The notes under the pieces are model-generated. The model saw only the letters and a list, made by a program, of their open reading frames with translations. It did not search any database and was not told the origin of the DNA. Shown here piece by piece: positions 16,178-46,043 of a DNA stretch of 64,000 nt; position 1 is the first letter of the stretch; every line of letters begins with the position of its first letter. Origin of the DNA: Valencia hispanica (lineage: Eukaryota; Chordata; Actinopteri; Cyprinodontiformes; Valenciidae); NCBI GenBank assembly GCA_963556495.2, contig OY747712.1, positions 18,744,235 through 18,808,234 of the forward strand, given 5' to 3'. The position numbers were made by a program, and so were the translations under genes.

Positions 16178-16189
16178 AAGAATCCTCCT

Positions 16190-19296: not shown

Positions 19297-19339
19297 AATT
19301 TGAGGGAGCCGGGCAATAAATCCACCCCTACCGTCTCCC

Positions 19340-22150: not shown

Positions 22151-22322
22151 ATGCTTGATGTCATATGTATGAAATGTGTTCATGCTCTCTTGCTTTTTTT
22201 TTCTCTTGCTTTATTGTCTATCATGTGTAATGTGTGTTTCTTTTATGTGTTTTTTTTAAATCACCAAATCATGTAAAGCACCTTGAATTACCCTGCTGTT
22301 GAAAGTGTGCTATACAAATAAA

Positions 22323-22342
22323 ATTGCCTTGCCTTGCCTTGC
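22323..22342 (+). repeat. (TTGCC)n 3' tail of L2 copy 2
   Basis: Tandem TTGCC units follow CTATACAAATAAAA, the normal place for the short tandem tail of this LINE type. Confidence 0.8.
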
Positions 22343-22348
22343 CTTTTA

Positions 22349-27068: not shown

Positions 27069-27163
27069 GACTACCCAGGGTCCAGACCAGGAAGCATAGT
27101 TGTAGTTTAACCCACCTCTCTGCTGCTTCTGTACTGTTACCCACCCATTACCCTATAGAAACA

Positions 27164-29238
27164 GTGTCTTGCCCACGGCCAAAATTACATGGATTAAAAG
27201 TTAAGCCAACAAAAGCAAATTATGGAAATCTCATAAAAATCAATACAACTTTGACTGAACAGAAAAATAAATCTATTAAATGTGGTTTATTAAACATAAG
27301 ATCTCTCTCCTCAAAGACTTTGTTAGTAAATGACTTGATTTGTGATAATCACATTGATTTCCTTTGTCTCACAGAAACCAGGTTGCAGCAGGAGGATTAT
27401 GTCAGTATAAATGAGTCAACTCCTTCCAGTCATTTAAATCTTCACATTCCTAGAAATACTGGGCGAGGAGGAGGAGTTGCAACCATTTTTCGTTCTGATT
27501 TACTAATTAGTCCCAGACCAATTGATAGCTACAGTTCGTTTGAACATCTAACCCTTAATTTTCCTCATCCAAGTTGCAAAACATTAAGACCATTTTTGTT
27601 TGTGGTTTTGTATCGTCCACCAGGCCCTTACTCTAAATTCTTGGATCAAGTCTGACATTTATTATCTGATTTAGTATTAAATACTGATAGGGTTATTATA
27701 GTAGGGGACTTTAATATTCATGTGGATACTGAAAGTGATAGCCTAAATGCAGCCTTTAATGCTATTTTAAACTCAATTGGCTTACCCACTCGGGTAAACA
27801 CACTTTGGACCTTGTACTGACATACAGTATTGAGTGTGAGGAAATAACAGTCCATCCACATAACCCGGTCCTGGCTGACCACTTCTTAATAACTTTTGAA
27901 TTTACTTTAACTGACCATCTTAAATCTGAAAGAAAATGTCATTATAGTAGAGCTTTATCAGACAATGCTGTAACAATTTTTAAAGAATCTGTTCCATTCT
28001 TACTTTCCTTAGTGTCTCAGGGTAACACAGTGGATGGCAGCAATTCTATCCCTAACCCTTCAGAAATTGATGATCTGGTTCACAGCGTTACGTCCTCATT
28101 GCTTTTGGCATTAGATAGTGTAGCCCCCTTAAAAAAGAAAGTGGCTAGCCATAGGAGGCTGACTCCTTGGTTTAACGCAGAGTTGCGTACTTTAAAGCAG
28201 AATACTAGGAAGTTGGAGAGAAAATGGCGTTCTACACACCTAGAGGATTCCTATTTAACCTGGAATAACAGTCTACTGCTGTATAAAAAGACCCTTCGAC
28301 AAGCTAGAACAGCATATTTTTCATCATTAATAGAGGCGAATAAAAACAATCCTAGGTTTCATTTTAGTACAGTTGCCAAACTTACACAGAGTCATAGCTC
28401 TGTTGAGCCAACTATTCCCCCAGCTCTTAGCAGTGTTGATTTTATGGGATTCTTCATAAATAAAATTAATTCTATTAAAAATAAAATCATTGGCATCCTC
28501 CCAAACATGATTACTTCTTCCTCAGTAAATGAGGCAGTATCGGAAAGAACTGTAGAACCTCAGTTGTGCTTAGGTTGTTTTGATTCAGTCAAGCTTTTGG
28601 AATTATCAAAAATATTAGCCTCATCTAAACCTTCAACTTGTATGATGGACCAAATTCCAACCAAATTATTTAAAGAAGTGTTCCATTTGGTTCCTGGCCC
28701 CATTTTGGATATGATGAATCTATCCTTAGTAAACGGATACGTACCACAGGAATTTTACATAGCTGTAATTAAACCTTTACTCAAGAAACCTTCCCTTGAT
28801 CAAGATGACTTAGTGAATTACAGACCTATATCTAACCTTCCTTTCTTATCCAAAGTCCTTGAGAAAATTGTTGCTAATCAAGTCTGTGAGCATCTAAACA
28901 GTAACGAGCTGTTTGAAGAGTTTCAGTCAGGTTTTAGAGCTCATCATAGCACTGAAACCGCACTGTTGAAGGTTACCTATGATATTCTCATGGCCTCAGA
29001 TAATGGACTGGTGTCTGTTCTGGTTTTGTTAGATCTCAGTGCTGCTTTTGACACAGTCGATCATAATATTCTCTTAGAAAGGCTTGAACATGTTGCAGGG
29101 ATCAAAGGAACAGCACTAGGCTGGTTTAAATCATATTTGTCTGATAGATTCCAGTTTGTTCATCTAAATGATATATCTTCTTCACTCTCAAGGGTTACTT
29201 GTGGAGTTCCACAGGGTTCTGTGCTTGGACCAATTCTC
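27164..29238 (+). pseudogene. L2 copy 3 ORF2: endonuclease and truncated reverse transcriptase
   Basis: The endonuclease is in 27164-27800: [40 protein letters not shown], then after an in-frame TGA (27653-27655) IIVGDFNIHVD. A frameshift near 27805 leads into a long open frame to 29238 with VLADHFLITFEF, the linker helix, [51 protein letters not shown] and GVPQGSVLGP. The catalytic YADD segment and everything after it are gone, replaced by the Rex3 tail. The product could not be functional. Confidence 0.8.
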
Positions 29239-30079
29239 CATCCATCCATCCATTTTCTTCCGCTTATCCGGGATCGAGTCGCGGGGGCAGCAGCCTAAGC
29301 AAAGAGACCCAGACTTCCCTCTCCCCAGCCACTTGTTCCAGCTCCTCGGGAGGAACCCCAAGGCGCTCCCAGGCCAGCCGAGAAACATAGTCCCTCCAGC
29401 GTGGGCCTTCCCCTGGGCCTCCTCCCGGTGAGACGTGCCTGAAACACCTCACCAGGGAGGCGTCCAGGAGGCATCTTGACCAGATGCCCGAGCCACCTCA
29501 ACTGACTCCTCTCGATGTGGAGAAGCAGCGGCTCTACTCTGAGCCCCCTCCGGATGACTGAGCTTCTCACCCTATCTCTAAGGGAGAGCCCAGACACTCT
29601 GCGGAGGAAACTCATTTCAGCCGCTTGTATCCGTGATCTCGTTCTTCCGGTCACCACCCAGAGTTCGTGACCATAGATGAGGGTAGGAATGTAGATCGAC
29701 CGGTAAATCGAGAGCTTCGCCTTTTGGCTCAGCTCTCTCTTCACCACGACAGACTGGTAGAGCGCCCGCATAACTGCAGATGCCCCACCAATCCGTCTAT
29801 CGATCTCCGCTCCATTTTTCCCTCATTCGTGAACAAGACCCCCAGATACTTAAACTCCTCCACTTGGGGAAGGACCCCATCCCCGACCCCGAGAAGGCAC
29901 CCCACCCTTTTCCGGCTCAAGACCATGGCCTCGGATTTGGAGGTGCTGATTCTCATCCCAGCCGCTTCACACTCGGCTGCGAACCGCTCCAGCGAAAGCT
30001 GTAGATCACGTTCCGATGAAGCCAACAGGACCACGTCATCTGCAAAAATCAGAGACCCGATCCCGAGGCCACCAAAACG
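29239..30079 (-). mobile_element. Rex3-like (RTE clade) LINE fragment, antisense
   Basis: Reading on the minus strand, this is the 3' part of a Rex3-type ORF and ends with the CGGAAGAAAATGGATGGATG tail, here at 29239-29268. The coding parts are 30034-29741 (SEAMVLSRKRVGCLLGVGDG, EEFKYLGVLFTNEGKMERRS) and 29771-29295 (YGHELWVVTGRTRSRIQAAE, IERSQLRWLGHLVKMPPGRL), separated by a frameshift. A copy in the other orientation is at 44472-45557. It starts just after the catalytic ADD motif, so it is 5' truncated. Confidence 0.75.
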
Positions 30080-30502
30080 AAATGACTTCTTCTTAAGTGC
30101 CTTGAGATGACATCTGTTGTGAATTGGCGCTATATAAATAAACTGAATTGAATTGAATTGTTCAGCTAATCACTTACATAATATGACAAATAGCATATGA
30201 GAGAATACACATACGTAGCTAAAACCATTGCACTGTTGGAATCAGAAAATACAGAAATAATACCCATAACATTTCCTCAGCTTTCTATTTAGTCAATTAG
30301 TGGTTCACTGTGATCCTGTGTTCTCTGTGTTGTGTTTTTTTAATACTTAATAAATGGAGCAATTAGAACAAACTAGATGTTACATTGTGAGGTTTGAATA
30401 TATATTTTTCTGTCTACTGACCGAGTGAACTTAGTGACTCTTCTAGTATTTTAATTTTGTTGCAGCTTTAAAAACTAACAGAGACTGCAACAATGAAAAA
30501 GA

Positions 30503-32400
30503 CCTGGGGTCTCATTTATAAAACTTTGTGTAGAATTCTTATTAAAAACGTACTTAAGCTCAGCAAAAAAATGTACTTACATAAAATAACATTTTCCAAT
30601 TTGTAAAACTTTGAGTACGCACAGCTGCACACCATTTCCGCTTCAAATCACATTCTCCCAAGAAATGTCTTCAGATGATTTTGGATCATATCCTGCCTCC
30701 TACGTACCCACTTTCTGCCATAAACGGTCAATACAAAGTACCTAATGAATATTCTGCATAGACTTAAGTTGGCTCATATGGGGCGTTTTCATGGGTAAAT
30801 GGCAGAGGCGGAGAAAGCGCAATTCCCCTCAGACTGAAATCATTATGTTTATGGGTGAAGTAGAGGAAATGGAAAAATATTTTATTTCAATAAATCAATC
30901 AATGTTTAACTGTATAGAGCTTTACTTTGCCAAAAGGTGACCAAAGTGCTTTTTAATAAAACACTAAAATATACACTCACTGGTCACTTTATTAGGCACA
31001 CCTCTCCAACTGCTTGTTAACGCAAATTTCTAATCAGTCAATCACATGGCGGCAACTTAATGCATTTAGGCATGTGGACATGGTCAAGTCGATCTGCTGC
31101 AGTTCAAACAGAGCATCAGAATGTGGAAGAAAGGTGATTTAATTGACTTTGAATCTGGCATGGTTGTTGGTGCCAGACCGGCTGGTCTGAATATTTTAGA
31201 AAATGCTGATTTACTGGGATTTTCACACACAACCATCTCTAGGGTTAACAGAGAATGGGCGGAAAAAGGGGAAATATCCAGTGAGCGGCAGTTGGGTGAA
31301 AATGCCTTGTTGATGGTGCCACAGGTCAGAGAAGAATGGTCAGACTGGTTCGAGCTGATAGAAAGGCAACAGTAACTCAAAAAAAATCACTCGTTACAAC
31401 CAAGTTATGCAGAACAGCATCTCTGAACACACAACACATCAAACCTTGAAGCAGATGGGCTACAGCAGCAGAAGACCACACTGGGTGCCATTCCTGTCAG
31501 GTAAGAACAGGAAACTAAGGCTACAATTTGCACAATTTCACCAAAATTGAACAATAGAAGATTGGAAAAATGTTGCCTGGTCTAATGAGTCTCGATTTCT
31601 GCTCGGACATTCGGATGGTAGGGTCAAAATTTGGCATCAACAACATGAAAGCATGGATCCACCCTGCCTTGTATCAACGTTTCAGGCTGCTGGTGGTGGT
31701 GTAGTGGTGTGGGGGACATTTTCTTGGCACACTTTGGGCCCCTTAGTACCAACTGAGCATTGTTGCAACACCACAGTCTACCTGAGTATTGTTGCTGACC
31801 ATGTCCATCCCTTTATGACCACAGTGTACCCATCTTCTGATGGCTACTTCCAGCAGGATAATGAACCATGTCATAAAGCTCGAATCATCTCAGACTGGTT
31901 TCTTTAATGAGCGCCAGCACATCCAATGCAGCATTATACAGGAGTGTCACCGCTGTATTTATATTTCTACTCATCACAAATAATGCACCAATAAGTGCAA
32001 TTGCTGTGTAATCTGAAGACATACAAATGAACATAGTGTGAGATAATTCTTCAATGCAGCATATTTTCTTTCAGATTCTCATTTTTATTCTCAGTTCAGA
32101 GACAGGGGTGCGGGCTGACTGTTGGTTGTGTGTTCGTGTGTGTGCGAGCGTCTACAAATCTGAAAATGTGGCCTGAATTCACAATTTTCCCATCTCTCCG
32201 GCTGCGCTGCAAGTGTCCTCTGTGTCCAAAATGTGCATAAGCAAGGTCCTTAGTGTACCTAAAGTTGTGCAAATTTTTTCTTTACACTTTCTTCCTTTGT
32301 AAATCACAAACTTTGTGCAGAAAGTGACTTACGCAAAACTCAGAAGTGCAAGCATGTTTAGTGTTTGTGCATAAGCAAGCTTTTTAAATGAGACCCCTGG
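30503..32400. mobile_element. DNA element with GGGGTCTCATTTA inverted ends, containing a Tc1 remnant
   Basis: The left end is CCTGGGGTCTCATTTATAAA and the right end, read on the other strand, is CCAGGGGTCTCATTTAAAAA. The subterminal regions carry repeated TGTGCATAAGCAAG-like and TTACGCA-like motifs. The superfamily is not clear from the ends alone, and no target duplication could be fixed. About 0.9 kb of its interior is an inserted Tc1 remnant, and a short L2-like 3' fragment may lie near 30900-30960. Confidence 0.55.
30971..31905 (+). pseudogene. Tc1-like transposon remnant with broken transposase
   Basis: The left terminus CACTCACTGGTCACTTTATT follows a TA. The translation shows the N-terminal helix-turn-helix region (KKGDLIDFESGMVVGARPAG, GFSHTTISRVNREW) at 31121-31375, then, after several frame breaks, [14 protein letters not shown] and, at 31653-31907, VVVWGTFSW and YFQQDNEPCHKARI. 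In the first catalytic segment the usual Asp-Glu is Asn-Glu, so a catalytic residue is lost. The C-terminal DDE Glu region and the right terminal repeat are missing. Multiple stops show long decay. Confidence 0.7.
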
Positions 32401-32613
32401 TGTTAATAGAAGCCTAAATGTTTTCTAAAAATGTACATAGGTTTTCTCTTTCACTCATAGTTTAAAAACATGCATATTATGTTAATTATAAATTTTTCTT
32501 TGGCATGATTGTGTGAGTGCAAAATTGGCTGTGTTGGTCCTGTGATGAATTGGGTATGTGCCAATTGTAGAGCCAACCTCCATTTACCACTATCCCCTAT
32601 GTGTCCCTAAATA

Positions 32614-34175
32614 CACTGCTCACAAAAATTAAAGGAACACTTTTTTATTTGGGCCTGGCATGAAATCAATTAAACCTGTCTGATAATTTTCTCGTTGGCT
32701 AAGCAGCTGAGGGCATTGTTAATCACTTTCAGCTGTATTGGTGTTCATGGACTTAACAACAGGTGCACTACAGTGGCAACAATCAGAAAACCCTCAAAAC
32801 AGGTATGGTTTTACATGTGGAGGTCATTTCAAGTTTCTCCCTCTTGATCTTTTTTGGCTGGTTTTCCACTCGTGCTGGTTTTGGCTTGAGATATTATCTC
32901 TACTGGCAGTATGAGGCGATTCCTTAACCCTACAGAAGTTGCACAGGTTGTCCAACTTCTCCAGGATGGCACATCCACACGTGCTGCAGCAAGAAGGTTT
33001 AATGTGTCTCCCTGCACAATCTCCAGAACATAGAGGAGATTTCAGGAGACTGGTGGTTATTCTCGGAGAGCTGGACAGGGCCGTAGAAGGTCCTCAACCC
33101 ATCAGCAGGACCGATACCTGCTCCTTTGTGCAAGGCGGAACAGGCTGAGCACTGCTCGTGCCCTACAGAATGATCTCCAGAGGGCCACTGGTGTGAATGT
33201 CTCTACCTAAACAATCAGGCTTCATGAAGATGGCCTGAGGGCCCGACGTCCTGTTGTGGGCCCTGTGCTCACTGCCCAGCACCGTGGAGCTCGACTGGCA
33301 TTTGCTCAAGAACACCAGAACTGGCGCCCTGTACTTTTTACAGACGAGAGCAGGTTCACCCTGAGCACCTGTGATAGACATGAAAGAGTCTGGAGAAGAC
33401 AAGGAGAACGTTATGCTGCCTGCAATGTCGTTCAACATGACAGGTTTGGTGGTGGGTCAGTGATGGTCTGGGGAGGCATATCCATGGAGGGACACACAGA
33501 CCTCTACTGCCTAGGAAATGGTGCTCTGACTGCCATAAGGTATCGAGATGAAATCCTTGAACCCATTGTCAGACCCTACGCTGGTGCAGTAGGTCCTGGT
33601 TTCCTCCTAATGCACGACAATGCCCGGCCTCATGTGGCAAGAGTATGCAGGCAGTACCTGGAGGATGAAGGAATTGAAACCATTGAATGGCCTTCACAAT
33701 CCCCTGACTTAAACCCAATAGAACATCTGTGGGACATTATGTTTCGGTCCATTAGGCGCCGCCAGGTTGCTCCTCAGACTGTACAACAGCTCAGGGATGC
33801 CCTCACACAGATCTGGGAGGAAATGCCACAAGACACCATCCGTCGTCTCATTGGGAGCATGCCCCGACGTTGTCAAGCATGCATACAAGCTCGTGGGGGC
33901 CACACAAGATACTGAAAAGCATTTTGTGTTGCAGAAATTAAGTTTTTGAGAAAATGGACTAGCCTGCCAGATCTTCATTTCACTCTGATTTTAGGGTGTT
34001 TACACAATTGGGCCTTCTGTAGGCTGAAAACTTTTATTTCCATTAAAAGACTTGGCATCCTTTTGTTCCTAAGACATTGCCCAGTCGTTATTTGTATAGA
34101 TATCCAACTTCATATTGAGATCTGATGTATCTAATGTGGTTGTTTAAAGTGCTCCTTTAATTTTTGTGAGCAGTG
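32614..34175 (+). mobile_element. Full-length Tc1-type transposon (1,562 bp)
   Basis: The terminal inverted repeats are CACTGCTCACAAAAATTAAA at the left and its complement at the right (about 30 bases with few differences). They are flanked by TA at 32612-32613 and 34176-34177, the target dinucleotide of Tc1/mariner elements. It lies only 78 bases from the stop codon of the SecA-like gene on the opposite strand. Its transposase gene at 32911-33915 has two in-frame stops and no frameshift. Confidence 0.85.
32911..33915 (+). pseudogene. Tc1 transposase with two premature stops
   Basis: One frame of 334 codons, close to the usual Tc1 length of about 340, runs from ATG at 32911 to TGA at 33913. 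It is interrupted by TAG at 33031-33033 (codon 41) and TAA at 33208-33210 (codon 100). Domains in order: a helix-turn-helix pair (EVAQVVQLLQDGTSTRAAAR), then the DDE nuclease with LFTDESRFTL (first Asp), VMVWGGISMEG, LMHDNARPHVAR (second Asp), and WPSQSPDLNPIEHLWDIMFR (final acidic residue). All catalytic residues are present; only the two stops inactivate it, so this copy is fairly young. Confidence 0.85.
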
Positions 34176-34246
34176 TATATAGAAAACATAACGTTTCTCC
34201 TTTTCAGAGTACTTTTTTTTTTTATCAATAAATTGTATTTCATCTT

Positions 34247-34248
34247 AC
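34247..34248 (-). other. Splice-donor-like site after the stop codon
   Basis: On the minus strand the stop is followed by AAAAG|GTAAGATG, a close match to the donor consensus, with the GT at 34248-34247. It may mark a 3' UTR intron. Because the stop is only seven bases before this junction it would not be expected to trigger nonsense-mediated decay. It could also be chance. Confidence 0.35.
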
Positions 34249-34252
34249 CTTT

Positions 34253-37200
34253 TCATGAAAGGACGCTGGACACTTGCTTCCTGTGTGGATCATTTTGATC
34301 CTTATAGCCCTGGTTTTCGATCCATTGTGTGACTGTTGTAAGATGTTCATTTGTCATGACACCCTCGCCTTGTAGCAGATTGTACCATTTCTGTACCATC
34401 TGTGTACTGAATTGCTGGAAACTTTTTTCAAATATGGCAGTCCGTGTTTTACTCTTCTTGTTTTGAACATTCTCGGTGTTACTTAGCTGGCATCTGACCA
34501 TTGCACTGAACGTCATCAGTTTAAAGGTTCCAACAATATCATCTTTGCTTATCATGGTAGCTAAGCTTGATTTCAAAGCTTTTGGCTCTGGAGAGGAAAT
34601 ATCATCAATTACATCTTTAAGGTTGCGATCAGTTGGTAGTTTCAGGCCTTCATCTTTCTTCATACCAGATGTTTTGCTGGGATCTGATACAGGTAAATAT
34701 TTTCTCACTTGCAGCATTGCCATAGCCAATTTGCTGTTCTGGTTTAGTTGCTTAGCTTCCACTATGGTACTGTTCGTAGGCTGCTGATCTGCATTGACTT
34801 TTTTTTCCACTGCTGGAATGGCCACTTTTTTAAAATATCCTTTGTATTGTTCAAACTTTCCAGTTATTTTCTGCAGCAGGGTTTTGTTTTCTTTTATAAT
34901 TCTTTCTGGTCTGCCTGCCTCCGCCATGTACCAGTCTCCTCCTCTGATTGTTTCAGTCAACTCTTTGCGCTTTATGAAAGGTTCCCACTGGCCTGGTTGT
35001 TTAAGGAGAGTCTTGGCCTCTACAGATCTCAGACGGCTTGCCTCTGAAGCAATCTCTGATTCACTGGCTTTGGGTTTCATGCCTCGGGCCAAAGCATGAA
35101 AAAGAGAACTCTTGTGTTTGCTGTCTATGCTCACTGTCTTATTGTTGATGAACACATCATAATGACCATTAGGATTTTGGGTGCTCTTTGGTCTGTAGAT
35201 CAAAGTCACTGTTTCACTGGCAGTTTTAGTGCTTGGACTCACCTCTTGCATTTTGGTGAGTTTGCCATGTTTGCTTTCTGTAAGAATGACAACTCTAGTC
35301 CCAGTGGCCTCTGACAGGACTCTGATATCGAGAAGAGTACCAGCAGTGTTGCTGTCCTTAATCTTTTCAGCATGTGATCTTGAGAGTCGACCAGCATTAG
35401 CTGCAGCTTTGGCATTTGGATTTACTGGCATGTTTTCTATGTAGTTGTTGTGCTGTCCAGCTTTAAGTTTTTCCTCTGTCCTCTCACTCTTTAAGCCAGA
35501 TCTGACATGTCGCCTAATGGCATTGTGTGCTTCGTTTTGTGCACGAGAAACAATGTGACTGAAAAACTTCTGATAAAACACCTCCACCAACGCATCAGCC
35601 AATAATGTGCTGAGGGTGTTGGCCAGGTCTTGCTTAAAGTTTTTCAGCATGTCAGTATCTGAGAAGGTTAGCTCATTTCGCTTCACTTTAGAAGCTTTTC
35701 CTTCGCTAAAAGTTTTCAGTTCTTTCTCAAAGTTTGAGAAGAACTTGCTGGAGAGGGTGAGTACTTCACCAATGGCATCTCCTGCCAGAATAGCATAGTG
35801 AGTAGTTTGGATAGCTATCAAAACTGCGCGTGTTTTTCCTTTTGTCCCTTCTGTAGCACTGTCAAGCACTTTGATGATTGATGAATTAAGCTTGTTCTGC
35901 CAACTAAGGTCTGCATATAATGGCTGTAATGCAGAATTTCCCAACTTTTTATAAATGGAGAGGAGGTCTTTCTTTCTGCTGTCGTTTTCCAGGACATCAC
36001 GCAGTTGGTCATTATATATAAGGTCAAAGAGGATAACATTATCCACCAATGTAGCCAAGGGTTCTTTTTCCAGGTTGCCTTTCATATCATTAACAACTCC
36101 CTTTGTCACCTCTTTTTTTATGCCTTCTAATATTTGTTTAAGTAATTCCTCTTCTGCTTTCTGAAGTCCGTAAACCAACGTTTCCTCCACAATCGTTTTG
36201 GCTACATGTTTTACAGCATTCTTCATGTTTGTCTTTGTGACAGTGCTTAAACTCTTTTTAGCCTGTTTGGAGAGAAACTTAGGCAATGACTTCAGTTTTT
36301 TACCTAGAGCTTTAAATCCTGCTTTGGCAGCTTTGAATCCCTTTGAAATTAGTTTTCCAACTCCAAATGATATGATAGAAACACCAATGGAAATGGCTTT
36401 TCCTATAGCCCATTCTTTCCAGCTGAACTCCCCTGTCACCATGGCTGTAATACCTTCAATACAGTCTGATATTCCTTCAGTTATGAGTCCCATTCCGATT
36501 TGAGCCAAAGTACCAACTGTGAATACAGTGAGTAATGCTCCTGCAATAATTTGCAAAACTCCAAGCAAGAAAACCAGTAGACCTTCCCATGGGAAGCGAG
36601 GCTTCTCCTCAACAGAGAATACATATTTTAGACCGCGACTGTAAAGGTTATCAGCTTCCATTTGGAGCTCTTCATCTGCATCTGACACCAACGAGAAAAC
36701 AGGGGATTTTTTGGCTATTGCATCCCTCCCCTTTCCTTTGATTTCATCAAGCTTTTGTATGGCCTCAGTCATGTTTTTATCAAAGAACCTGTACATGGTG
36801 CACTTGGTTGTTAACTGTTTCTCAAGGCTGGATGGCTCACCTTTGCCTGAGTCCACACTGACCATTTTTATGAACTGCAAACAGACCATGCTTTCTTCGC
36901 ACAGACACTTTAGGGACTCCTGGGCCTTTTGAAGATCTTCCTTAGCTTTTGTGAGGTAATCTCCATTCGACAGTTTTATAGTGCAGTATGCGTGACTGTA
37001 AAAACCGATGGCTGCCCAATCTCCATCTTGATTCATGGCTTTTTCAAACAGCCTGGCACCTTGTTCCCATTTTTTGTCATCCAGAAAAATATTTCCAAAA
37101 TTGATGTAGTGATAAATGCTCGAAGACGGTGAAGTTTGAGAGGAAGACTGTTGTCTTGCCACAGCTAAATCCTTTTTCAGACTTTGCTGAAGTTCACTTT

Positions 37201-40200
37201 TTTTCCGCTGGTCAATGTCTTCTGACTTAATTTGCAGCCAGATCCCCCAGAATTCATTCATGATGGCAACAATCACTTTTCTGTCATCTCCATCTGTTTT
37301 TTTGTAAATATCATGAAGAGTATCACAGTACTCTGAAAACAGCTCCTCACGCAAATTCATCTCAGAAACATCATCCATCATAGAACTTATTTTTTCTGCA
37401 GCAAGTCTGTCCCTTGTCGTTTTGGCTTCTTCCAGAGACGTCGCTGACCTGAAATCATGCTGCAGGTGTTGAGTGCACATGATGATCTGAGCAGATCCAG
37501 GTTTACCTTTGCGTGCTGTCCGACCAAAAGCTTGGAGCTCTACTCTGGTGTTTTCAGAAAGGAAGGAGAGAATAACAAAGAGTCCTCCATTTTTGTTCAC
37601 CTGTTTGGACACTTTAATGTCCGTGCCACGCCCAGCAAGGTTTGTAGCAACAATAACATCTCCCGGAACCAGCTCCTTTTCTATTTTACTCAAACTTTCC
37701 TTGTCACTGCGACTGTAGAGGATGATGTCACCTGGGATGCTGCTTTTCAGTTCTTCGTAGATTTCTTTGGCTAGGTTGATAGTTTCACAGATCACAAGGG
37801 CGGCTCTTCCTTCTCTGTATGAATTTGAGGAGATTTGAGACAGTACAACCCCTTTTATTTCAGATTTCCACTCCTTAGAAGTTGTTTTCAGAGTTCCTTT
37901 GACCTCATATAGTTTCTTCCTGTTGAATGTTGGTATTCTGCATGCCGACAGACTTCGATATAGATCCTGCAGAAACAGAATATCCTTGTCACTGCCAAGT
38001 GTTCCAGTTGTCCCATATATCTTTCCCTGGTACTTTTGAAAGAAGGAGATGTTAGAAACGTAGTTTGTCACTGCTGAAATTGTGCTGAGTTTGACTTGAT
38101 GTTTAATCTCCACAAACTGCTGCAGGCCATCACCCCATTTCTTATTCTGTTCAATAATACCAGTGGATCTGAAGTCTACTGGACAGATATTGTGATGTTC
38201 TACCACATAGTCCCGTCCTTCCCTCAGCTGCTTTGCCAGAAAGGCATTTTCCACCCACAAAGACATTTTGGTCCCAATGAGAGTCCTCAAGAATCCAGGA
38301 ATGCTGACTTTGTCTGTGCTGTTTGTGCATGGAGTGTACTGAATCTTCTCTGAGATTAACTCTGCAATGGGGTTGATTAGAACTTCTTCTGAGTCATAGA
38401 GAGGACAACATAAGCCTTCATCCAAGATTAGAAACTTTAGGTCTGGAATTTGATTTGTGTTGTACGGAGTGAGTTTTCTTGGACATAGCACTCCTTCATC
38501 ATTTAATGTATAAACTGTGAAACCATAGGGGACATAGTCCTCCATTTCTTCAAAAAATCTTATAGCAGCATCCTGACTCACAACTTTCAGCTTTTTAAGG
38601 ATATCATTCTTGTCACCCGTATGGATGTCCTCTGTAAAGCCCTGTGGCACAGTGTTGGTTTCTTCTGCAATACGTAAAATGTCAAGTGGGTCTTCGATAT
38701 CAGTGTCTTCTGTGTTTATTGAATCAAAGATGGCCCTAAAGAATGAAGCAGGTGGACCCTGGACAAATGTCTGGTGTCCTGAAGATAGGAAGCCATACTG
38801 TTGGATGTGCCCCCAGATCATCGCCAGAATAGTGTTTATGTGTTCCATGGAGACCATGGGGCTGGACAGGTAGGTCAACTGCACTCCTTGATCCAGCAGC
38901 AGAGAATCTACTTCATCAATAATGATGCATTGGTAGCTACGATTAGGCCTAACATCTTTCATCTCAAATATCTGCCGAAGGTGATCAGCAGCAAAGGCTT
39001 CAATTGTTCCATAGATGACGTCCTTCTGGTAACAATCCTTTCGACTGCTGTCATCAGTTTTATTTGTGTTTGTGTCAACTGTAATGCCAAAGTACTTGTA
39101 GAAGTTGTCCCATTCTGCTGCATCTCTTTGACATAAAACCGAAGAGCTGGACACCACATCTACTTTTTCACCTCTAAACACACGGAATGCTGCAAACATT
39201 GCTATGACACAAGACTTTCCCTCTCCAGTTCCCATTTCCAGGAGCTTCCCAGAGTTGGACAAGGCCAAGAGGCACCAGCTTATCATCTGATTGATTCTAG
39301 GCCACCACTTTTCGTGAGCTATTTTCAGGTTAACTGCATTGCACAAGATTGCCAAGACCTCCTGAAGATCGTCCGTCTCCATGCTGTGAGAGAGTGTTTT
39401 AGCCTTTTTTATGTCATTGTATTTCTTAATTTCACCAGTTTCTATCAGCTTGGTCACATGAGAAACTATATTGTAGGATTTGTTCAGTGTTTCTTCATCA
39501 ATGTCTTTCATCTGTCTTATTTCATCAAAAAGGGTGTCAGTGCTTTTGATTTTTTCTTCACCAAGGCTTTTTTCTAAATGCTCAATCAGATTCTCTGTTT
39601 TATATGCCTCTAAGAGACTGAGAACAGATTGGTCCTTCTCATCTGTCCACTTGGAAGACACCCGATATGTTTCCATTAAATGTAAAATCTTCATGATTGA
39701 AATGCAACCGTCATTATGATGGTGATCGATTAATGCTCCAAGAACATTTAGAAGCTCGAGTGTTGACCAAAGGGTTTTATCTTTAAGATTTAAAACCATT
39801 TGGAAAATTTCTGTGGTTTGTTTATTTGAGGCTCTAATTTGCTCTGAAGATGCCAAAATACTCTCCAAACACCATTTTTCAGCAGTAGAAGTCATGCTTT
39901 TTTCAGCTTCATTTTCACTGGTAATCACTTTCAAGAGCCTCTCAAGAAAAGTCAGACTGAACATCTCTTTAGGAAGAAGTTCCTTTCCGCTAATCTTTTT
40001 AAGAATTTTGGTGACTTTTGATTCAATGCTTGTACTTTCTTTTAAATTTGACTGTAGAACTTGAAAAACAGCCTTGATGAACCTCTCTCTCTGTTCAATA
40101 TCTTCTGTGTGGAATTTTCCCACAAGGTTTTGCAGGACTTCTGCAGCACAACCAAGGGAATCACTATCCTTAAGCCTTGGCAGATCAAGAGTTTGTGATG

Positions 40201-42283
40201 CAATAAGACATTTTTCTTCAATGATAAACCCTCGTATGAAACTAGGGATCTTTGTTTCAATCATCTCTCTCCAGTACAGAAAGTAGTCTGACACAAAGTC
40301 TTCAAGTGTACCATAGACGACATCGGCCTCATAGACACTCATAAAAGATGAATCAGTTTGTTTCCTGATGTTTGTTCTGACTGATATTCCAAGGCTCTGG
40401 TAGAAATCAGACCATTCATTAGTTTGAGCTTCAGTTTCACTGTCAGAGTTCAGCATAATATCCATTTTGCTCCCCATATAGAATTGTGTTGCAGAAAACA
40501 TGGCAATGACACATGGGTCTTCAGAAGAAACCAGTTTTGGTACTTCTGTCTTCCCAGTTGGCACAAGCACACACCACTGCACCATGTGTTTCACTGTGGG
40601 CCACCAGCCTTTTGTGTCAAAAACTGCTTTGCAGAGCTGAGAAAGACAGCTCAGTAAATTATGTGTGTCAAAAGCCTCAGATTTTAAAGATCCTTCAGGG
40701 GCATTTTCTGAAAACTGGAAAACACCAGTGATGGTGGTTTTTATTTCTTTTATCCTGGAATCATCCAGCTTTTGTGACATTTTTACCTCTGCCAGAGCTG
40801 CATCTAGACTACTTTCATCTTTCTTTTTGAGAATCTTATGGAAATCCTGATAGAAACTTTTTGAATCAGCATTGTCAAGAGCCTGAATGAGAGGGCATCC
40901 AGAATCGTCGGTCCAGCTCGGTGAAATGTCATACACCTCTACCAATTTGAGGACTTTTGCTATTGAAACATCATCTGCACATTTTAATGACATTGCTTTA
41001 AGAAGATTCACTGCCTCCATGGGTGTCCATTGGTCTATTTCTACAAGTTCAAGGATCATCTCAGTTGATGCACTGTGGCTTTCTTTACCATTCAGATTGA
41101 CAAGAGTGGACATTAGAAGTTTCAAACTGTGGATTTCCATTTTTAAAATAAAAATAGAGGCCTTGCCAACTGCACTATGCATTGATGAAATGAGGGTGCT
41201 CAGGAACCCAACAGGAAAAAGTTCCTCCACTGTGAGTTCTTCCTTAGCCCATTGTTTTGCTATAATGACTGCATCAGCATCAGAACAGTCCTTTTCATTG
41301 ATGTAGTGCATCAGAGTAAGATACAGGGATTGAGTCAACTCAAGACTCTCAGAAATACTACACACTGATTGACTAATGGACTCAACCAAGGTCTGCAAAT
41401 GATTTGAGATATTTTCTCGAGAAACTTCTTCTGGTATCTCCGCAGACAGTGCAGACAGCTCTGTGATGTAAACCTGAGTGTGCTGCAGAGTGCTGCCGGA
41501 TGGGGGATCATTTATCCATTCATCAAACAGGAGTTTGTCCAGAGCTGACAGGATCTTCCCCAGTAGATCAGCTTTTGGAGCTTTGAGATTTAGATCTGAA
41601 GCTTCAATGTTACATTTCAAAGAAAGGATTTCTAAAAACTCATCTTTCCCACTGTAAGATTTATAATCAGCCTCAAATTCATCCAAATGCCCAATCAGAA
41701 CATTATGTTTGGACTGATATTCTTGTCTACTTCTCTGTTGTTTTTCATACTGCTCTTTAGCGCGTTCCTTTGAGTCCTTTATTCTTTGACTCAGCTCCTC
41801 TTTCTTTCTCTCCTCCTCTCTCCTTTGTTGTTCTTCTTGTCTTCTTCTCTCCTCTTCCATCTTTTTTCTCTCTTCCTCTGTCCTTTGTTGCTCCTCTCTC
41901 CTCCTCTCTTCCTCTTTTCTCTTTTGCTCCTCTTCTTTTCTTCTCTCTTCCTCTTTCCTTTTCCTTTCCTCCTCTCTCCTACATTCCTCTTCTCTTCTCC
42001 TCTCTTCCTCCCTCCTTCTTTCTTCCTCCCTCCTTCTTTTCTCTTCCTCTTCCCTCCTACGTTCTGCATCTCTGATTGGCTTATAAAAGCAATCAGGGCA
42101 ATGATATTGGTCATTATAACCAACTGGTCTGTAGTATTCCCCTCCATTAAACACGTGGACATGCTGCCCATGTATGACATCTTGTCTTAAATTATCAAAG
42201 GACCAACATGGAGGCAAGACTCTAGAACACTTACAGCACCTCAGCCTGTCGCCCATGTTCGCTTCTGATGGTACGTTTCCCAT
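34253..42283 (-). CDS. Giant SecA-like ATPase with degenerate tandem motor and OTU-like C-terminus
   Basis: A 2,676-residue open frame in one exon. The start is ATG at 42283-42281, with A at -3 and G at +4, 57 bases inside a splice-acceptor-bounded exon. Residues 1-6 read MGNVPS, fitting N-myristoylation. Cys pairs at 16/19 and 62/65 suggest a zinc-binding module, followed by a Glu/Arg-rich coiled coil (about 72-195). A helical module plus SecA-like half-motor occurs twice: copy 1 (about 370-790) is degenerate (SSEDP at 586-590; IIEE at 687-690); copy 2 has MGTGEGKS (1017-1024), IIIDEVDSLLLD (DEVD 1123-1126), GTTGTLG (1424-1430), ATNLAGRGTD (1546-1555) and GRTARKG (1587-1593). The 100-residue Walker A to B spacing matches SecA. 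Then come a TPR-like segment (about 1725-1790), hydrophobic helices (1900-1970) and an OTU-like region (about 2300-2450). SecA drives polypeptide translocation in bacteria and plastids; the role here is unknown. The family is firm from motifs; partners and localisation are inference. Confidence 0.9.
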   Translation of the reverse strand: MGNVPSEANMGDRLRCCKCSRVLPPCWSFDNLRQDVIHGQHVHVFNGGEYYRPVGYNDQYHCPDCFYKPIRDAERRREEEEKRRREEERRREEERRREEECRREEERKRKEEERRKEEEQKRKEEERRREEQQRTEEERKKMEEERRRQEEQQRREEERKKEELSQRIKDSKERAKEQYEKQQRSRQEYQSKHNVLIGHLDEFEADYKSYSGKDEFLEILSLKCNIEASDLNLKAPKADLLGKILSALDKLLFDEWINDPPSGSTLQHTQVYITELSALSAEIPEEVSRENISNHLQTLVESISQSVCSISESLELTQSLYLTLMHYINEKDCSDADAVIIAKQWAKEELTVEELFPVGFLSTLISSMHSAVGKASIFILKMEIHSLKLLMSTLVNLNGKESHSASTEMILELVEIDQWTPMEAVNLLKAMSLKCADDVSIAKVLKLVEVYDISPSWTDDSGCPLIQALDNADSKSFYQDFHKILKKKDESSLDAALAEVKMSQKLDDSRIKEIKTTITGVFQFSENAPEGSLKSEAFDTHNLLSCLSQLCKAVFDTKGWWPTVKHMVQWCVLVPTGKTEVPKLVSSEDPCVIAMFSATQFYMGSKMDIMLNSDSETEAQTNEWSDFYQSLGISVRTNIRKQTDSSFMSVYEADVVYGTLEDFVSDYFLYWREMIETKIPSFIRGFIIEEKCLIASQTLDLPRLKDSDSLGCAAEVLQNLVGKFHTEDIEQRERFIKAVFQVLQSNLKESTSIESKVTKILKKISGKELLPKEMFSLTFLERLLKVITSENEAEKSMTSTAEKWCLESILASSEQIRASNKQTTEIFQMVLNLKDKTLWSTLELLNVLGALIDHHHNDGCISIMKILHLMETYRVSSKWTDEKDQSVLSLLEAYKTENLIEHLEKSLGEEKIKSTDTLFDEIRQMKDIDEETLNKSYNIVSHVTKLIETGEIKKYNDIKKAKTLSHSMETDDLQEVLAILCNAVNLKIAHEKWWPRINQMISWCLLALSNSGKLLEMGTGEGKSCVIAMFAAFRVFRGEKVDVVSSSSVLCQRDAAEWDNFYKYFGITVDTNTNKTDDSSRKDCYQKDVIYGTIEAFAADHLRQIFEMKDVRPNRSYQCIIIDEVDSLLLDQGVQLTYLSSPMVSMEHINTILAMIWGHIQQYGFLSSGHQTFVQGPPASFFRAIFDSINTEDTDIEDPLDILRIAEETNTVPQGFTEDIHTGDKNDILKKLKVVSQDAAIRFFEEMEDYVPYGFTVYTLNDEGVLCPRKLTPYNTNQIPDLKFLILDEGLCCPLYDSEEVLINPIAELISEKIQYTPCTNSTDKVSIPGFLRTLIGTKMSLWVENAFLAKQLREGRDYVVEHHNICPVDFRSTGIIEQNKKWGDGLQQFVEIKHQVKLSTISAVTNYVSNISFFQKYQGKIYGTTGTLGSDKDILFLQDLYRSLSACRIPTFNRKKLYEVKGTLKTTSKEWKSEIKGVVLSQISSNSYREGRAALVICETINLAKEIYEELKSSIPGDIILYSRSDKESLSKIEKELVPGDVIVATNLAGRGTDIKVSKQVNKNGGLFVILSFLSENTRVELQAFGRTARKGKPGSAQIIMCTQHLQHDFRSATSLEEAKTTRDRLAAEKISSMMDDVSEMNLREELFSEYCDTLHDIYKKTDGDDRKVIVAIMNEFWGIWLQIKSEDIDQRKKSELQQSLKKDLAVARQQSSSQTSPSSSIYHYINFGNIFLDDKKWEQGARLFEKAMNQDGDWAAIGFYSHAYCTIKLSNGDYLTKAKEDLQKAQESLKCLCEESMVCLQFIKMVSVDSGKGEPSSLEKQLTTKCTMYRFFDKNMTEAIQKLDEIKGKGRDAIAKKSPVFSLVSDADEELQMEADNLYSRGLKYVFSVEEKPRFPWEGLLVFLLGVLQIIAGALLTVFTVGTLAQIGMGLITEGISDCIEGITAMVTGEFSWKEWAIGKAISIGVSIISFGVGKLISKGFKAAKAGFKALGKKLKSLPKFLSKQAKKSLSTVTKTNMKNAVKHVAKTIVEETLVYGLQKAEEELLKQILEGIKKEVTKGVVNDMKGNLEKEPLATLVDNVILFDLIYNDQLRDVLENDSRKKDLLSIYKKLGNSALQPLYADLSWQNKLNSSIIKVLDSATEGTKGKTRAVLIAIQTTHYAILAGDAIGEVLTLSSKFFSNFEKELKTFSEGKASKVKRNELTFSDTDMLKNFKQDLANTLSTLLADALVEVFYQKFFSHIVSRAQNEAHNAIRRHVRSGLKSERTEEKLKAGQHNNYIENMPVNPNAKAAANAGRLSRSHAEKIKDSNTAGTLLDIRVLSEATGTRVVILTESKHGKLTKMQEVSPSTKTASETVTLIYRPKSTQNPNGHYDVFINNKTVSIDSKHKSSLFHALARGMKPKASESEIASEASRLRSVEAKTLLKQPGQWEPFIKRKELTETIRGGDWYMAEAGRPERIIKENKTLLQKITGKFEQYKGYFKKVAIPAVEKKVNADQQPTNSTIVEAKQLNQNSKLAMAMLQVRKYLPVSDPSKTSGMKKDEGLKLPTDRNLKDVIDDISSPEPKALKSSLATMISKDDIVGTFKLMTFSAMVRCQLSNTENVQNKKSKTRTAIFEKSFQQFSTQMVQKWYNLLQGEGVMTNEHLTTVTQWIENQGYKDQNDPHRKQVSSVLS
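35020..35385 (-). other. OTU-like C-terminal region of the SecA-like protein
   Basis: Residues about 2300-2420. The stretch RVVILTESKHGKL followed by VTLIYRP and GHYDVFIN (His at 2374) resembles the last strands of OTU cysteine peptidases, where a His followed by an aromatic residue closes the catalytic site. The segment KSSLFHALARGM (Ser 2392-2393) resembles the OTU catalytic-Cys helix but has Ser-Ser where Asn-Cys is expected. It also comes after, not before, the His segment. Either two OTU-like pieces are juxtaposed or the resemblance is partial. Peptidase activity is unlikely from these residues. Confidence 0.35.
37364..39406 (-). other. SecA motor core with complete ATPase motifs
   Basis: Residues about 960-1640. 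The order Walker A, DEVD Walker B, GTTGT, GRGTD and the GRTAR arginine-finger-type motif is that of SecA nucleotide-binding domains 1 and 2. The 300-residue gap between DEVD and GTTGT is larger than in bacterial SecA and holds the place of the preprotein cross-linking domain. All residues expected for ATP hydrolysis are present, so this copy is predicted active. Confidence 0.85.
40184..40666 (-). other. Degenerate SecA half-motor
   Basis: Residues about 540-700. Side by side with the active copy, WWPTVKHMVQWCVL matches WWPRINQMISWCLL, CVIAMFSATQFYMGSKMDIM matches CVIAMFAAFRVFRGEKVDVV, and DVVYGTLEDFVSDYF matches DVIYGTIEAFAADHL. The Walker A is SSEDP in place of GEGKS and the Walker B Asp is Glu 689. 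The Cys-to-acid spacing is 98 residues in both copies. It is an internal duplicate that has lost nucleotide binding, a likely pseudo-ATPase. Confidence 0.8.
41699..42070 (-). other. Glu/Arg-rich coiled coil of the SecA-like protein
   Basis: Residues about 72-195 consist of irregular repeats of EERRREEE, EEERKKEE and similar, predicted to be a long charged helix. The DNA is a purine-only strand over hundreds of bases, prone to repeat-length change, so the length may vary between individuals or paralogues. Confidence 0.8.
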
Positions 42284-42340
42284 TTTTTAAAGTAAATCTT
42301 CAACGTACACAGCAGTCAGCACATGCAACAGGTCTGGAAC

Positions 42341-42342
42341 CT
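42341..42342 (-). other. Splice acceptor upstream of the SecA-like gene
   Basis: On the minus strand TTTTTCTTGTTATCTTTCAG precedes the exon that starts at 42340; the AG is 42342-42341. The ATG lies 57 bases inside the exon. This indicates at least one 5' untranslated exon upstream and supports a transcribed eukaryotic gene rather than contamination or a processed copy. Confidence 0.6.
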
Positions 42343-42360
42343 GAAAGATAACAAGAAAAA

Positions 42361-43060
42361 CAAAACATCTTTGTTATATTTAGAAAATACATTTAGTGAT
42401 TTCGCTATTTATAAAGTTGAGATTAATTTGATACTAGCTCGCTAACATTCGTAAATGTGGCAAACAGAATTAGCAAAAACAAAAACAGCTATTTTCAAAA
42501 GATTTGGAAAGGTACTTTAAAACAAAAAGAAACTAATTTGTATCTGATACTGAAAAGCAAATTCTCACAGACTGCCTTGTTTCCTTAAATAAGCCTGTAA
42601 AATGGTACCATTTCATGCCATTGGAGATTTGTTTCTGGTTTTTACTGGTTTTTTGTAATTATCCCATTCTCAATGTACACGACTGAGCTTTAAAATAATT
42701 TCACAATAGAGCACTCTCAGAGTGCGCATTTTACTGACTGCAATTTCTATGACAGCCACATGGTGTGCTCTCTGCAGTCATCTCAGCATACTACTCAGCG
42801 CAGCTTTAAAGGTTCACCAAAAAGAATATAATGTGGCGATTTTCATGTGCCATGAAAAAGGAGCTTCACGCAATTAATGTATAATTTTACGTAACTATTT
42901 CTTGAATTCATAACTGCCGTCTGGGGTGGCAGCAGGGGTGGCAAGGCTTTCTTTATGCTACCCCATGCTCATGAGCCATCTTGATAAACATATCCACGAG
43001 CTGTTCAAACTCATAACAGCCTAATTTAACAAAGAACAATCAGATATGTTGGAACACACA
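42361..43060. other. Non-coding, upstream of the SecA-like gene
   Basis: No coding frame or repeat recognised. It should contain the first intron, and possibly the first exon and promoter, of the minus-strand gene, but I could not place them. Confidence 0.4.
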
Positions 43061-43162
43061 GAGCCATTGGGTGGCACTACCCCACATTCTAGCTCCAACA
43101 GGAGAAGAAGAGGACCAGAGCTTTAATAAGGGCTCGGGTCACCGGAGCACGCTCACTTCCGC

Positions 43163-43636
43163 TTGGGCTTTCGGCCAGACAGTGCCAGGAGAGACCCAAC
43201 AAAATCCTTCCTTCACTGGCGAGGGGAAAGGACGCAAGTTTCTGGGAGAAACTCTCTCCAAGGAAGACAAAGACTGCTGATCGATCAGGTGAATCGCAAA
43301 CCACAGATGAGACACACCCCACTGTTCTGCCCTGAGCCCTGCAGAAGCTTTCTGAATTACAGACGCTGCCATGAGGAAGGGACCGCTAACCAGCTGCTGC
43401 ATGCCGCAGAGCCGCGTCCAGACTTAAGCCATTACACCCACCTGATGTGGGCTGAATGCTGTGCTGGAAAGCTGCGGAAAAAGGTACTGTCAGTGAAGGA
43501 AGATGGAACTGATCGCTGTTTAGCCAAGCCGGAGAGGACGACGTCCCAGCTAAAGGCTGCTACCAGCTCCCCATCAGCCGTAAGGCCTCCCACTGCAAAC
43601 CGACCGCAGCTATTGTGCTGGCTAACATTGTTTTAG
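43163..43636 (+). CDS. Unrecognised ORF, 157 codons
   Basis: A frame starting MGFRPDSARRDPTKS and ending CWLTLF with many Arg, Pro and Cys residues. It sits in a locally GC-rich segment (43080-43640). No domain or motif was recognised. Stretches such as PLFCPEPCRSFLNYRRC could be a decayed protein or chance. The GC-rich DNA may be the leader or coding remnant of a retroelement. Coding status is doubtful. Confidence 0.2.
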   Translation: MGFRPDSARRDPTKSFLHWRGERTQVSGRNSLQGRQRLLIDQVNRKPQMRHTPLFCPEPCRSFLNYRRCHEEGTANQLLHAAEPRPDLSHYTHLMWAECCAGKLRKKVLSVKEDGTDRCLAKPERTTSQLKAATSSPSAVRPPTANRPQLLCWLTLF

Positions 43637-43639
43637 CTT

Positions 43640-44458
43640 TCCCAATCATCAACGGAGCAACCTGGATAACTTTAACCATTCAATAAGGTCTGTCTGGGCA
43701 GAGGCGAGATTAGTTTAGGATAAAGAAGATTTAAGGGTTGTTTGTTTTCACTGTGATTCGTTACCTTGTGTAAGATTTCATTTATTGTTTGGGTACAAAC
43801 AGGCCGGTTGGCCCGGAGGTTTAAACAGTGATTTTCGAGGTTTCCGGTGGAAAGTAGTTTTATATCCTGCAACCTGAGTGGCTCAATCCGACAGTTTTCC
43901 TTTGTTTGGTGTTTAATAAATGAACCAGACCAGCTTTAAGTAGCTCCACGTGAGTTAGCTGTAAGCTAAAAGCTTGAACCATGTGGGCCTGCCTTTGACT
44001 GCTCGGCTTAATGAACAATAAAGACTGCCATTGATGGTATTTGAAATAGAGATCGGCTTTAAAAAACAGATCGTTAAAACACCAAAACTAATCTTTTAAA
44101 TCATTTTTGAAACCACCTTCTTGGTAAGTCGAAATACAAAATTAGATCAATCACTGCGGTGACCAATCCATAAAATAGAATCAATTCTCCATGAAGTTAT
44201 TGATTTCTAATTCAGCAAATGGTTTAATGAAACATTACTTCTTCCAAAGAAAGTTTTTCTTCACTTCTGCTTTGCATTGTGAATTGGTGGTTTGAAAACA
44301 ATCCAGAAGGTGCTGATTAGTTTTAAACTAACCACAATTAGTTTAAAAGTAATTTATACAATCCTTGGTCTTTAAGCAAACAATCATTCTGAACTGTGAC
44401 ATTATCAATTCATTGGTTGTTTCTACTTCTTTGCATATTTATCACTTTTACTGTTTAC
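43640..44458. other. Non-coding stretch
   Basis: AT-rich, with AATAAAG-type motifs near 44020. No recognised element or coding frame. Confidence 0.4.
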
Positions 44459-44471
44459 ATTTGGGTGTTAG

Positions 44472-45533
44472 GGACACGGTCCCTCGGGGGGCCCTGTGGG
44501 GGGTGCTCCGGGAGTATGGGGTACCGGGCCCCTTGATACGGGCTGTTAGGTCCCTGTACGACCGGTGCCAGAGTTTGGTTCGGATTGCCGGCAGTAAGTC
44601 GGGCTTGTTTCCAGTGAGAGTTGGACTCCGCCAAGGTTGCCCTTTGTCACCGATCCTGTTCCTAACTTTTATGGACAGGATCTCTAGGCGCAGCCAAGGC
44701 GTTGAGGGGATCCGTTTTGGTGGCCTCAGGATCGGGTCTCTGCTTTTTGCAGATGACGTGGTCCTGTTGGCTTCATCGGAACATGATCTACAGCTTTCGC
44801 TGGAGCGGTTCGCAGCCGAGTGTGAAGCGGCTGAGATGAGAATCAGCACCTCCAAATCCAAGGCCATGGTCTTGAGCCGGAAAAGGGTGGGGTGCCTTCT
44901 CGGGGTCGGGGATGGGGTCCTTCCCCAAGTGGAGGAGTTTAAGTATCTGGGGGTCTTGTTCACGAATGAGGGAAAAATGGAGCGGAGATCGATAGACGGA
45001 TTGGTGGGGCATCTGCAGTTATGCGGGCGCTTTCCCGGTCTGTCGTGGTGAAGAGAGAGCTGAGCCAAAAGGCAAAGCTCTCGATTTACCTGTCGTTCTA
45101 CGTTCCTACCCTCATCTATGGTCACGAACTCTGGGTGGTGACCGAAAGAACGAGATCACGGATACAAGCGGCTGAAATGAGTTTCCTCCGCAGAGTGTCT
45201 GGGCTCTCCCTTAGAGATAGGGTGAGAAGCTCAGTCATCCGGAGGGGGCTCAGAGTAGAGCCGCTGCTTCTCCACATCGAGAGGAGTCAGTTGAGGTGGC
45301 TCGGGCATCTGGTCAGGATGCCTCCTGGACGCCTCCCTGGTGAGGTGTTTCAGGCACGTCTCACCGGGAGGAGGCCCAGGGGAAGGCCCAGGACACGCTG
45401 GAGGGACTATGTTTCTCGGCTGGCCTGGGAGCGCCTTGGGGTTCCTCCCGAGGAGCTGGAACAAGTGGCTGGGGAGAGGGAAGTTTGGGTCTCTTTGCTT
45501 AGGCTGCTGCCCCCGCAACCCGACCCCGGATAA
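44472..45533 (+). pseudogene. Rex3-like reverse transcriptase, C-terminal part
   Basis: The first frame (to 45051) has VRVGLRQGCPLSPILF, then LLFADDVVLLAS with the catalytic Asp pair, KAMVLSRKRVGCLLGVGDG and YLGVLFTNEGKMERRSIDG. The second frame (45021-45533) continues LSQKAKLSIYLSFYVPTLIY, IERSQLRWLGHLVRMPPGRL and GRRPRGRPRTRWRDYVSRLA. One frameshift in the overlap 45021-45051 separates them. The endonuclease and the N-terminal reverse transcriptase motifs are lost by 5' truncation, so the copy is not functional. Confidence 0.8.
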
Positions 45534-45557
45534 GCGGAAGAAAATGGATGGATGGAT
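44472..45557 (+). mobile_element. Rex3-like (RTE clade) LINE with target-site duplication
   Basis: The 5' truncated copy is flanked by TTGGGTGTTAG at 44461-44471 and 45558-45568 (13 matching bases if the adjoining AT is counted). The 3' end is CGGAAGAAAATGGATGGATG, the GATG-type tail expected of Rex3. It matches the antisense copy at 29239-30079 closely, so both are recent relatives. Confidence 0.85.
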
Positions 45558-45992
45558 TTGGGTGTTAGTTTAATTATTATTATTCTTTTCCTTAGTGGTT
45601 TAGGTGTGTGTTGCTAGCTTAGTGAGTTTGTTGATTAAAGCATTTTAACTGAAAGTTGAATTCTTTTTGTGATACTCTTGTATTTTGGAAAATCGTTGTT
45701 TTGTTATTTCACCTACATGTGTAGTAACTTGCTGTTCAAAGAACGTGGAGGATGCGTTTTGATTGGTCGCTTGAATATTTCCCCTCAGCACACAGCTCAT
45801 GTTGAGCACACAAAGTGAGTTTTTCAACTAGCAATGCGAAAAATATCAAACCTGTTTGATTTTCACCTCAACGCCTCATGAGGCAGAAAACTCACAGAAA
45901 ACTAGCCACACACAGCAAGCTATCTGCTGAGCAAACGGCCTCGAATTATTTTCAGCTAAGCAGATTGCTCTCGTGTGCGGCAGGCTTAAGAG

Positions 45993-46043
45993 GAGCTGGT
46001 GGAGTGATGTACACTCCACCAGCTCTAATCACTCCACCAGCTC
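45993..46043. repeat. Hairpin with duplicated right arm
   Basis: GAGCTGGTGGAGTGA (45993-46007) is complementary to TCACTCCACCAGCTC (46029-46043). A second ACTCCACCAGCTC lies between them (46013-46025). The left arm could pair with either right copy. Confidence 0.7.

Follow-up and report, generated by a model that had tools for sequence, protein, structure and literature searches.

We describe a gene in a 64,000-nt stretch of the genome of the fish Valencia hispanica, here called the window (contig OY747712.1; C15:18744235-18808234 of a 1.29-Gb assembly with 29 contigs). Its minus-strand reading frame 34253-42283 encodes 2,676 residues plus a stop codon, and we conclude with high confidence that this fish gene is functional, chromosomal and codes for a giant SecA-fold ATPase, and that the ATPase's family stands apart from housekeeping SecA, its marks being a motor, TPR-like helices and a hydrophobic hairpin, after which fish members usually have a permuted OTU-like domain. 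A sequence-only reading had proposed an intact 8-kb frame here; this is borne out, with the strand corrected to minus. Since a good acceptor and a good donor, picked out by eye, flank the frame, the coding sequence appears to form a single large exon with introns of the untranslated regions on either side. The features, in window coordinates and order of translation, are:

42341..42346, minus strand: candidate 3' splice acceptor tttcag (by eye); the exon would start at 42340, 57 nt ahead of the ATG
34253..42283, minus strand: the coding frame, unbroken over 2,676 aa and a stop codon, its MGN start conserved
42050..42283, minus strand: aa 1-78, MGN start (myristoylation-type) and CxxC...CxxC region (by profile)
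41714..42067, minus strand: aa 73-190, Arg/Glu-rich coiled-coil-like stretch (by eye)
40214..41257, minus strand: aa ~343-690, repeat A, a degenerate half-motor (eight relatives compared)
39494..40003, minus strand: aa 761-930, helical part of repeat B
37364..39493, minus strand: aa 931-1640, predicted SecA-fold motor
39212..39232, minus strand: aa 1018-1024, Walker A GTGEGKS
38906..38917, minus strand: aa 1123-1126, DEVD
37505..37525, minus strand: aa 1587-1593, GRTARKG
36629..37363, minus strand: aa 1641-1885, scaffold and TPR-like helices
36194..36628, minus strand: aa 1886-2030, hydrophobic hairpin module (GLITEGISDC..GEFSWKEW)
35444..36193, minus strand: aa 2031-2280, helical region
34937..35407, minus strand: aa 2293-2449, predicted permuted OTU-like domain
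35162..35164, minus strand: His2374 of the reversed triad H-Y-D
35105..35107, minus strand: Ser2393, where a catalytic Cys is expected
34256..34918, minus strand: aa 2456-2676, poorly conserved C-terminal tail
34243..34248, minus strand: candidate splice donor gtaaga, 4 nt past the stop codon (by eye)

SecA is known as a motor of bacteria and plastids. A SecA profile match had been set beforehand as a test, and Pfam found one (SecA_DEAD 6.9e-37, with P-loop_SecA at 1.4e-7). The SecA motifs lie in order at aa 1018, 1123, 1424, 1546 and 1587. Comparison of the modelled motor with known structures placed SecA at the top by 12 Z units, the SecA alignments covering residues 2-792 of the model. The two best SecA entries, one of them a SecY-engaged form, aligned over 569 and 596 residues, against about 335-355 for helicases among the matches listed; all 24 matches in a PDB sequence search were SecA. 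These comparisons speak against a nucleic-acid helicase or translocase that merely resembles SecA, an idea worth weighing because SecA is a superfamily-2 relative and the motor's substrate could be RNA or DNA; we consider it unlikely.

The claim of a full SecA motif set holds for motif order and fold, but the scores fall far under the curated SecA cut-offs. All NCBIfam SecA models stayed below their cut-offs (131-184 bits versus 725-1493), including the curated equivalogs PRK12904 (152 bits versus 814) and secA2 (154 versus 930), and Pfam gave no SecA_PP_bind or SEC-C match in the window protein at E<=1. Elsewhere in the family SecA_PP_bind was matched below cut-off in Latimeria (E=0.0013) and above it in P0079 (3e-9) and P0080 (2.4e-7). 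A genuine export motor doing SecA-like work for a translocon at mitochondria or the endoplasmic reticulum would suit the fold, including its SecY-engaged form; the low scores, the two missing domain matches and an N-terminus with a conserved myristoylation-type MGN start and no transit peptide make it very unlikely.

The closest proteins are cyprinodontiform (Ilyodon 87%, Poecilia 84% and Cyprinodon 79% identity), and relatives of the gene are present in coelacanth, sturgeon and many further fishes, including medaka (P0033; Oryzias latipes LOC105357957). Across 52 chosen rows, the window protein and 51 relatives that include coelacanth and crayfish, the Walker A lysine and serine are present in all 49 rows with a letter there (the first glycine in 46), the four DEVD positions in 50, 51, 51 and 51 of 51 rows (E1124 and D1126 in all), and both motif VI arginines (GRTARKG) in 52/52. 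Because the Walker A lysine, DEVD and these arginines are near-invariant, ATP-driven work looks like the constant function of the family. Databases label such proteins 'protein translocase subunit SecA-like', and four members carry misleading database names: reticulocyte-binding protein (P0005), CWC22-like (P0020), cytochrome c oxidase assembly protein (P0028) and low choriolytic enzyme (P0143). A Megalops record named 'GTPase IMAP family member 8-like' (P0220) holds a SecA-like piece, perhaps through a gene-model fusion or a neighbourhood with GIMAP genes.

With the family defined as motor, then TPR-like helices, then hairpin module, the window protein is a member. The tandem motor of the sequence-only reading comes down to one live SecA-fold motor preceded by a dead half-copy, repeat A, which has a pseudo-P-loop near aa 586 and neither GTGEGKS nor DEVD. 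The MGN start, which we take to be of myristoylation type, is shared by 32 of the 34 proteins matching the N-terminal profile (the window protein included). We set aside the hairpin as a pore-forming toxin: the top Foldseek rows were alpha-pore toxins (E 0.5-1.2), a likeness that is unusable because this part was modelled at a predicted local distance difference test (pLDDT) score of 30-63.

The best structural match of aa 2293-2449 is EschOTU of Escherichia albertii (PDB 6w9s). The model predicts an OTU-like tail, as proposed, of the permuted kind and with its catalytic cysteine replaced by Ser2393; the C23 copy described below also has serine. The family shows the reversed order His-aromatic-Asp/Asn ahead of Cys, with Y/F in 51/51 rows and D/N in 50/51. 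The histidine is found in 43/51 rows, with at least five state changes on the tree, and the cysteine in 29/48, with at least eight (in four rows a D occupies this column, where a deletion may have upset the alignment); Oreochromis is one relative that has the cysteine, and both residues are kept in 45 of 84 aligned stretches of the domain. Since they change state so often, ubiquitin cutting, if ancestral, would have been lost repeatedly, in this fish too, while the domain persists.

Searching the assembly with the SecA_DEAD profile found six places: the window, one on C23, three frames on C17 and one on C18. The C23 copy is an intact frame of 2,673 aa, and C15 and C23 form a collinear duplication that includes the flanks, with matches across 21.7 kb of the window interrupted by insertions; 513 of 7,123 aligned flanking bases differ. 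Between the coding sequences 95.5 of 1,685 silent and 118.5 of 6,334 replacement sites differ (dS 0.059, dN 0.019), with two gaps totalling three codons and zero frameshifts. The dN/dS check, made on these two copies of one genome, accordingly gives 0.32. The ratio is lowest in the hairpin (0.06), the OTU-like domain (0.16), helical B (0.20), the TPR region (0.21) and the motor (0.28), and higher in repeat A (0.34), the C-terminal helices (0.48), finger and coil (0.52) and the tail (0.59). The 111 amino-acid differences comprise 45 derived in the window copy, 35 derived in C23 and 31 unassigned; changes derived in C23 include G1018A (Walker A), D1555N and H2374Q, of which D1555N is not a clear loss because N stands there in 12/52 rows.

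The OTU cysteine is lost, and C23 has also lost the histidine and carries G1018A in its Walker A, as a decaying relic might; purifying selection and intact 8-kb frames in both copies oppose this. For contamination, the alternative to decay, the 55-Mb contig and fish relatives of up to 87% identity are the contrary facts, and we find either idea hardly credible.

The remaining paralogues are of other types. On C17 lie three shorter frames of a separate short family (L008 2410-5988, L009 5136-8345, L010 3921-7628), with mutual ratios of 0.39-0.41 and an in-frame stop in one; they stop after the TPR-like region, as part of a teleost family also seen in Gambusia, Xiphophorus, Epinephelus and others. 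C18 holds a divergent paralogue with a 1,771-aa frame, a GTGEGKT motor and a hairpin (L011 1445-6760 and 7128-8240), with a long Arg/Glu-rich frame ahead; it clusters with rows from Bombina and Poeciliopsis and apart from the window type.

Just downstream of the gene lie a putative mariner/Tc1-like transposase frame, judged from its residues (33211-33915, plus strand), and, near 34160, an inverted-repeat-like end. Reverse-transcriptase-like frames, by eye of the long interspersed nuclear element type, occupy 15242-22921, 27071-29822 and 44353-45533. Rfam gave zero matches within 30000-46000, and no further host gene was recognised in the window, no search having been aimed at one.

The family also has bacterial members. 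An Amoebophilaceae metagenome-assembled genome (MAG) carries two such genes (L014 and L020) besides its own housekeeping SecA, and the fish motor profile scored L020 at 4e-39 and 9.9e-62, against 3.6e-25 and 2.3e-29 for the housekeeping SecA. L014 comes from a broken assembly, where separate frames carry in turn the motor, the TPR region, the hairpin and, judged by eye, an H...NC tail; the fish-built OTU profile did not match L014. A hairpin pattern scan of prokaryote genomes confirmed one of 44 pattern matches (L014), and was insensitive, since it missed L020 in the same genome. The named carriers Ca. Bandiella numerosa and a Ca. Tisiphia endosymbiont gave weak hairpin matches (3.7e-6 and 1.3e-6), the Tisiphia protein additionally having standard OTU and RickCE domains. 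P0080 has a Ulp1 domain and, under cut-off, a match to the M91 effector; P0079 matches Ulp1 under cut-off. Among the bacterial members profiled, no profile match was found to the MGN finger (Bandiella, Tisiphia and the Amoebophilaceae MAG included) or to the half-motor helices (a search of members other than L014 and L020). Published work places SecA-like domains among the effector modules of Amoebophilus (PMC3482391) and the eukaryotic-like domains of phage WO (PMC5062602).

Rows for the trees were selected from 236 proteins and from the loci, and the fish set of 52 rows and the model alignments of 34 and 41 rows are likewise selections; the motor tree omits P0096 (insert), P0098 and P0226 (both partial), and the approximately unbiased (AU) tests omit P0090 and P0116 too. 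In the 77-row motor tree, 12 rows of which are less than half filled, the family is split from two housekeeping SecAs with full support. Wasp and beetle proteins (P0113, P0092, P0115) group with the Tisiphia endosymbiont protein at 99% in the Shimodaira-Hasegawa-like approximate likelihood ratio test (SH-aLRT), hinting that genes may have moved between Rickettsiales and insects. A constraint that keeps 38 named eukaryotic rows separate from five named bacterial rows was rejected (AU p=0.0003), a result the insects alone might cause, and this rejection supports at least one crossing between domains. The central claim of the sequence-only reading, now a genuine SecA-fold ATPase gene in a fish, under purifying selection and in a family with bacterial members, is supported. 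We judge it probable that members in intracellular bacteria and eukaryotes have crossed between them at least once and that the branch leading to the vertebrate members is an old one. For the vertebrate gene, horizontal acquisition is plausible.

A single clade of 29 named vertebrate rows was rejected (AU p=1.5e-32); the branch of C18, Poeciliopsis and Bombina groups with environmental sequences. P0070, a protein of the crayfish Procambarus clarkii, is 39% identical to the window protein in an alignment spanning 95% of the latter, and sits beside bichirs within the vertebrate group (91% SH-aLRT). We do not claim that the crayfish gene came from a fish, as holding 26 vertebrate rows together without Procambarus is not rejected (AU p=0.10). 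Nor do we claim that the gene has spread horizontally from fish to fish: sequences of the herring and characin types stand among percomorphs (96% SH-aLRT), yet a 32-row percomorph grouping is not rejected (AU p=0.25).

That crayfish position, together with surroundings that by eye are rich in transposable elements and copies on several chromosomes, would fit a selfish or mobile element's gene rather than a host gene. The unrejected percomorph monophyly and the collinear duplication of the C15/C23 pair with its flanks tell the other way, as does a search of the assembly with the C-terminal 796 residues, which found only the two full copies (C15, C23) and the divergent C18 paralogue, and no broken swarm. 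A viral-contig scan with the bacterial-type hairpin alignment likewise confirmed none of 39 pattern matches, and we hold a mobile origin to be quite unlikely. The motor model had 77 matches in BFVD at E<=0.001. Among the best 50 of the 77 the TM score by query does not exceed 0.30 and many are named helicases; a giant-virus protein called ubiquitinyl hydrolase ranks first, and two bear the name DUF3638.

Returning to a SecA-fold host gene, we tentatively propose a membrane-anchored, self-associating, ATP-driven polypeptide puller or unfolder with a ubiquitin-related tail. The myristoylated N-terminus, and probably the hairpin, would anchor the protein at a cytosolic membrane face, and the coil would mediate self-association. 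The SecA clamp would spend ATP to pull or unfold a polypeptide threaded through it, the dead repeat A probably regulating or pairing with the live motor. The ancestral tail may have bound and cut ubiquitin; in this lineage, its catalytic Cys gone, it is likely only a ubiquitin binder or scaffold. The most likely use would be host-microbe conflict, for instance to extract proteins marked with ubiquitin at the membrane of a vacuole or organelle. Because bacterial relatives keep company with ubiquitin-system peptidases and effector modules, and the distribution is patchy and multicopy, we infer that the vertebrate gene itself came from such an intracellular bacterium and has an antimicrobial use; the signalling or defence role suggested earlier is of the same inferential kind. 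Identity, family history and mechanism, taken as one explanation, fall somewhat short of an even bet.

Bony vertebrates are more than 400 million years old. It is a speculative thought, and rather doubtful, that over this span they have retained, in domesticated form, an effector-like machine of intracellular bacteria: a SecA-type polypeptide puller tethered to a membrane and joined to a permuted tail that reads or cuts ubiquitin, used against microbes as an innate weapon or a repair engine. If true, animals would have a pathway powered by SecA, and the permuted OTU would exist outside bacteria; we found neither described in the open-access literature searched, nor any study there of animal or fish SecA-like proteins. 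A 2015 paper (PMC4687049) claims the first functional bacterial gene in fishes. If coelacanth, sturgeon and teleosts all keep a SecA-fold ATPase under selection, animals would be pulling polypeptides with a machine that, within the reach of our searches, is unstudied in them, and the same proteins connect fish with SecA-like genes of Rickettsiales and Amoebophilaceae. Medaka has a copy, so knockout and biochemistry are feasible.

Three known systems come closest. The SecA/SecA2 preprotein translocase ATPases share the motor motifs in order, the two-lobe fold and the 569- and 596-residue alignments, whereas the window protein is giant, with a tandem dead half-motor, hairpin and OTU-like tail; it lies under every NCBIfam SecA cut-off with no SEC-C or SecA_PP_bind match, and a long, fully supported branch parts its family from the two housekeeping SecA rows (one of them 19% filled). 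The SecA-like proteins of intracellular bacteria likewise have a SecA-like motor and then the hairpin, in the Amoebophilaceae MAG with the TPR-like region also, but differ in having no MGN finger by profile and low identity to the fish family. EschOTU shares the reversed H-aromatic-D/N...C order of a permuted topology for which its describers knew one bacterial enzyme only; the window domain, whose best structural match it is, has Ser for Cys and sits inside a giant vertebrate protein.
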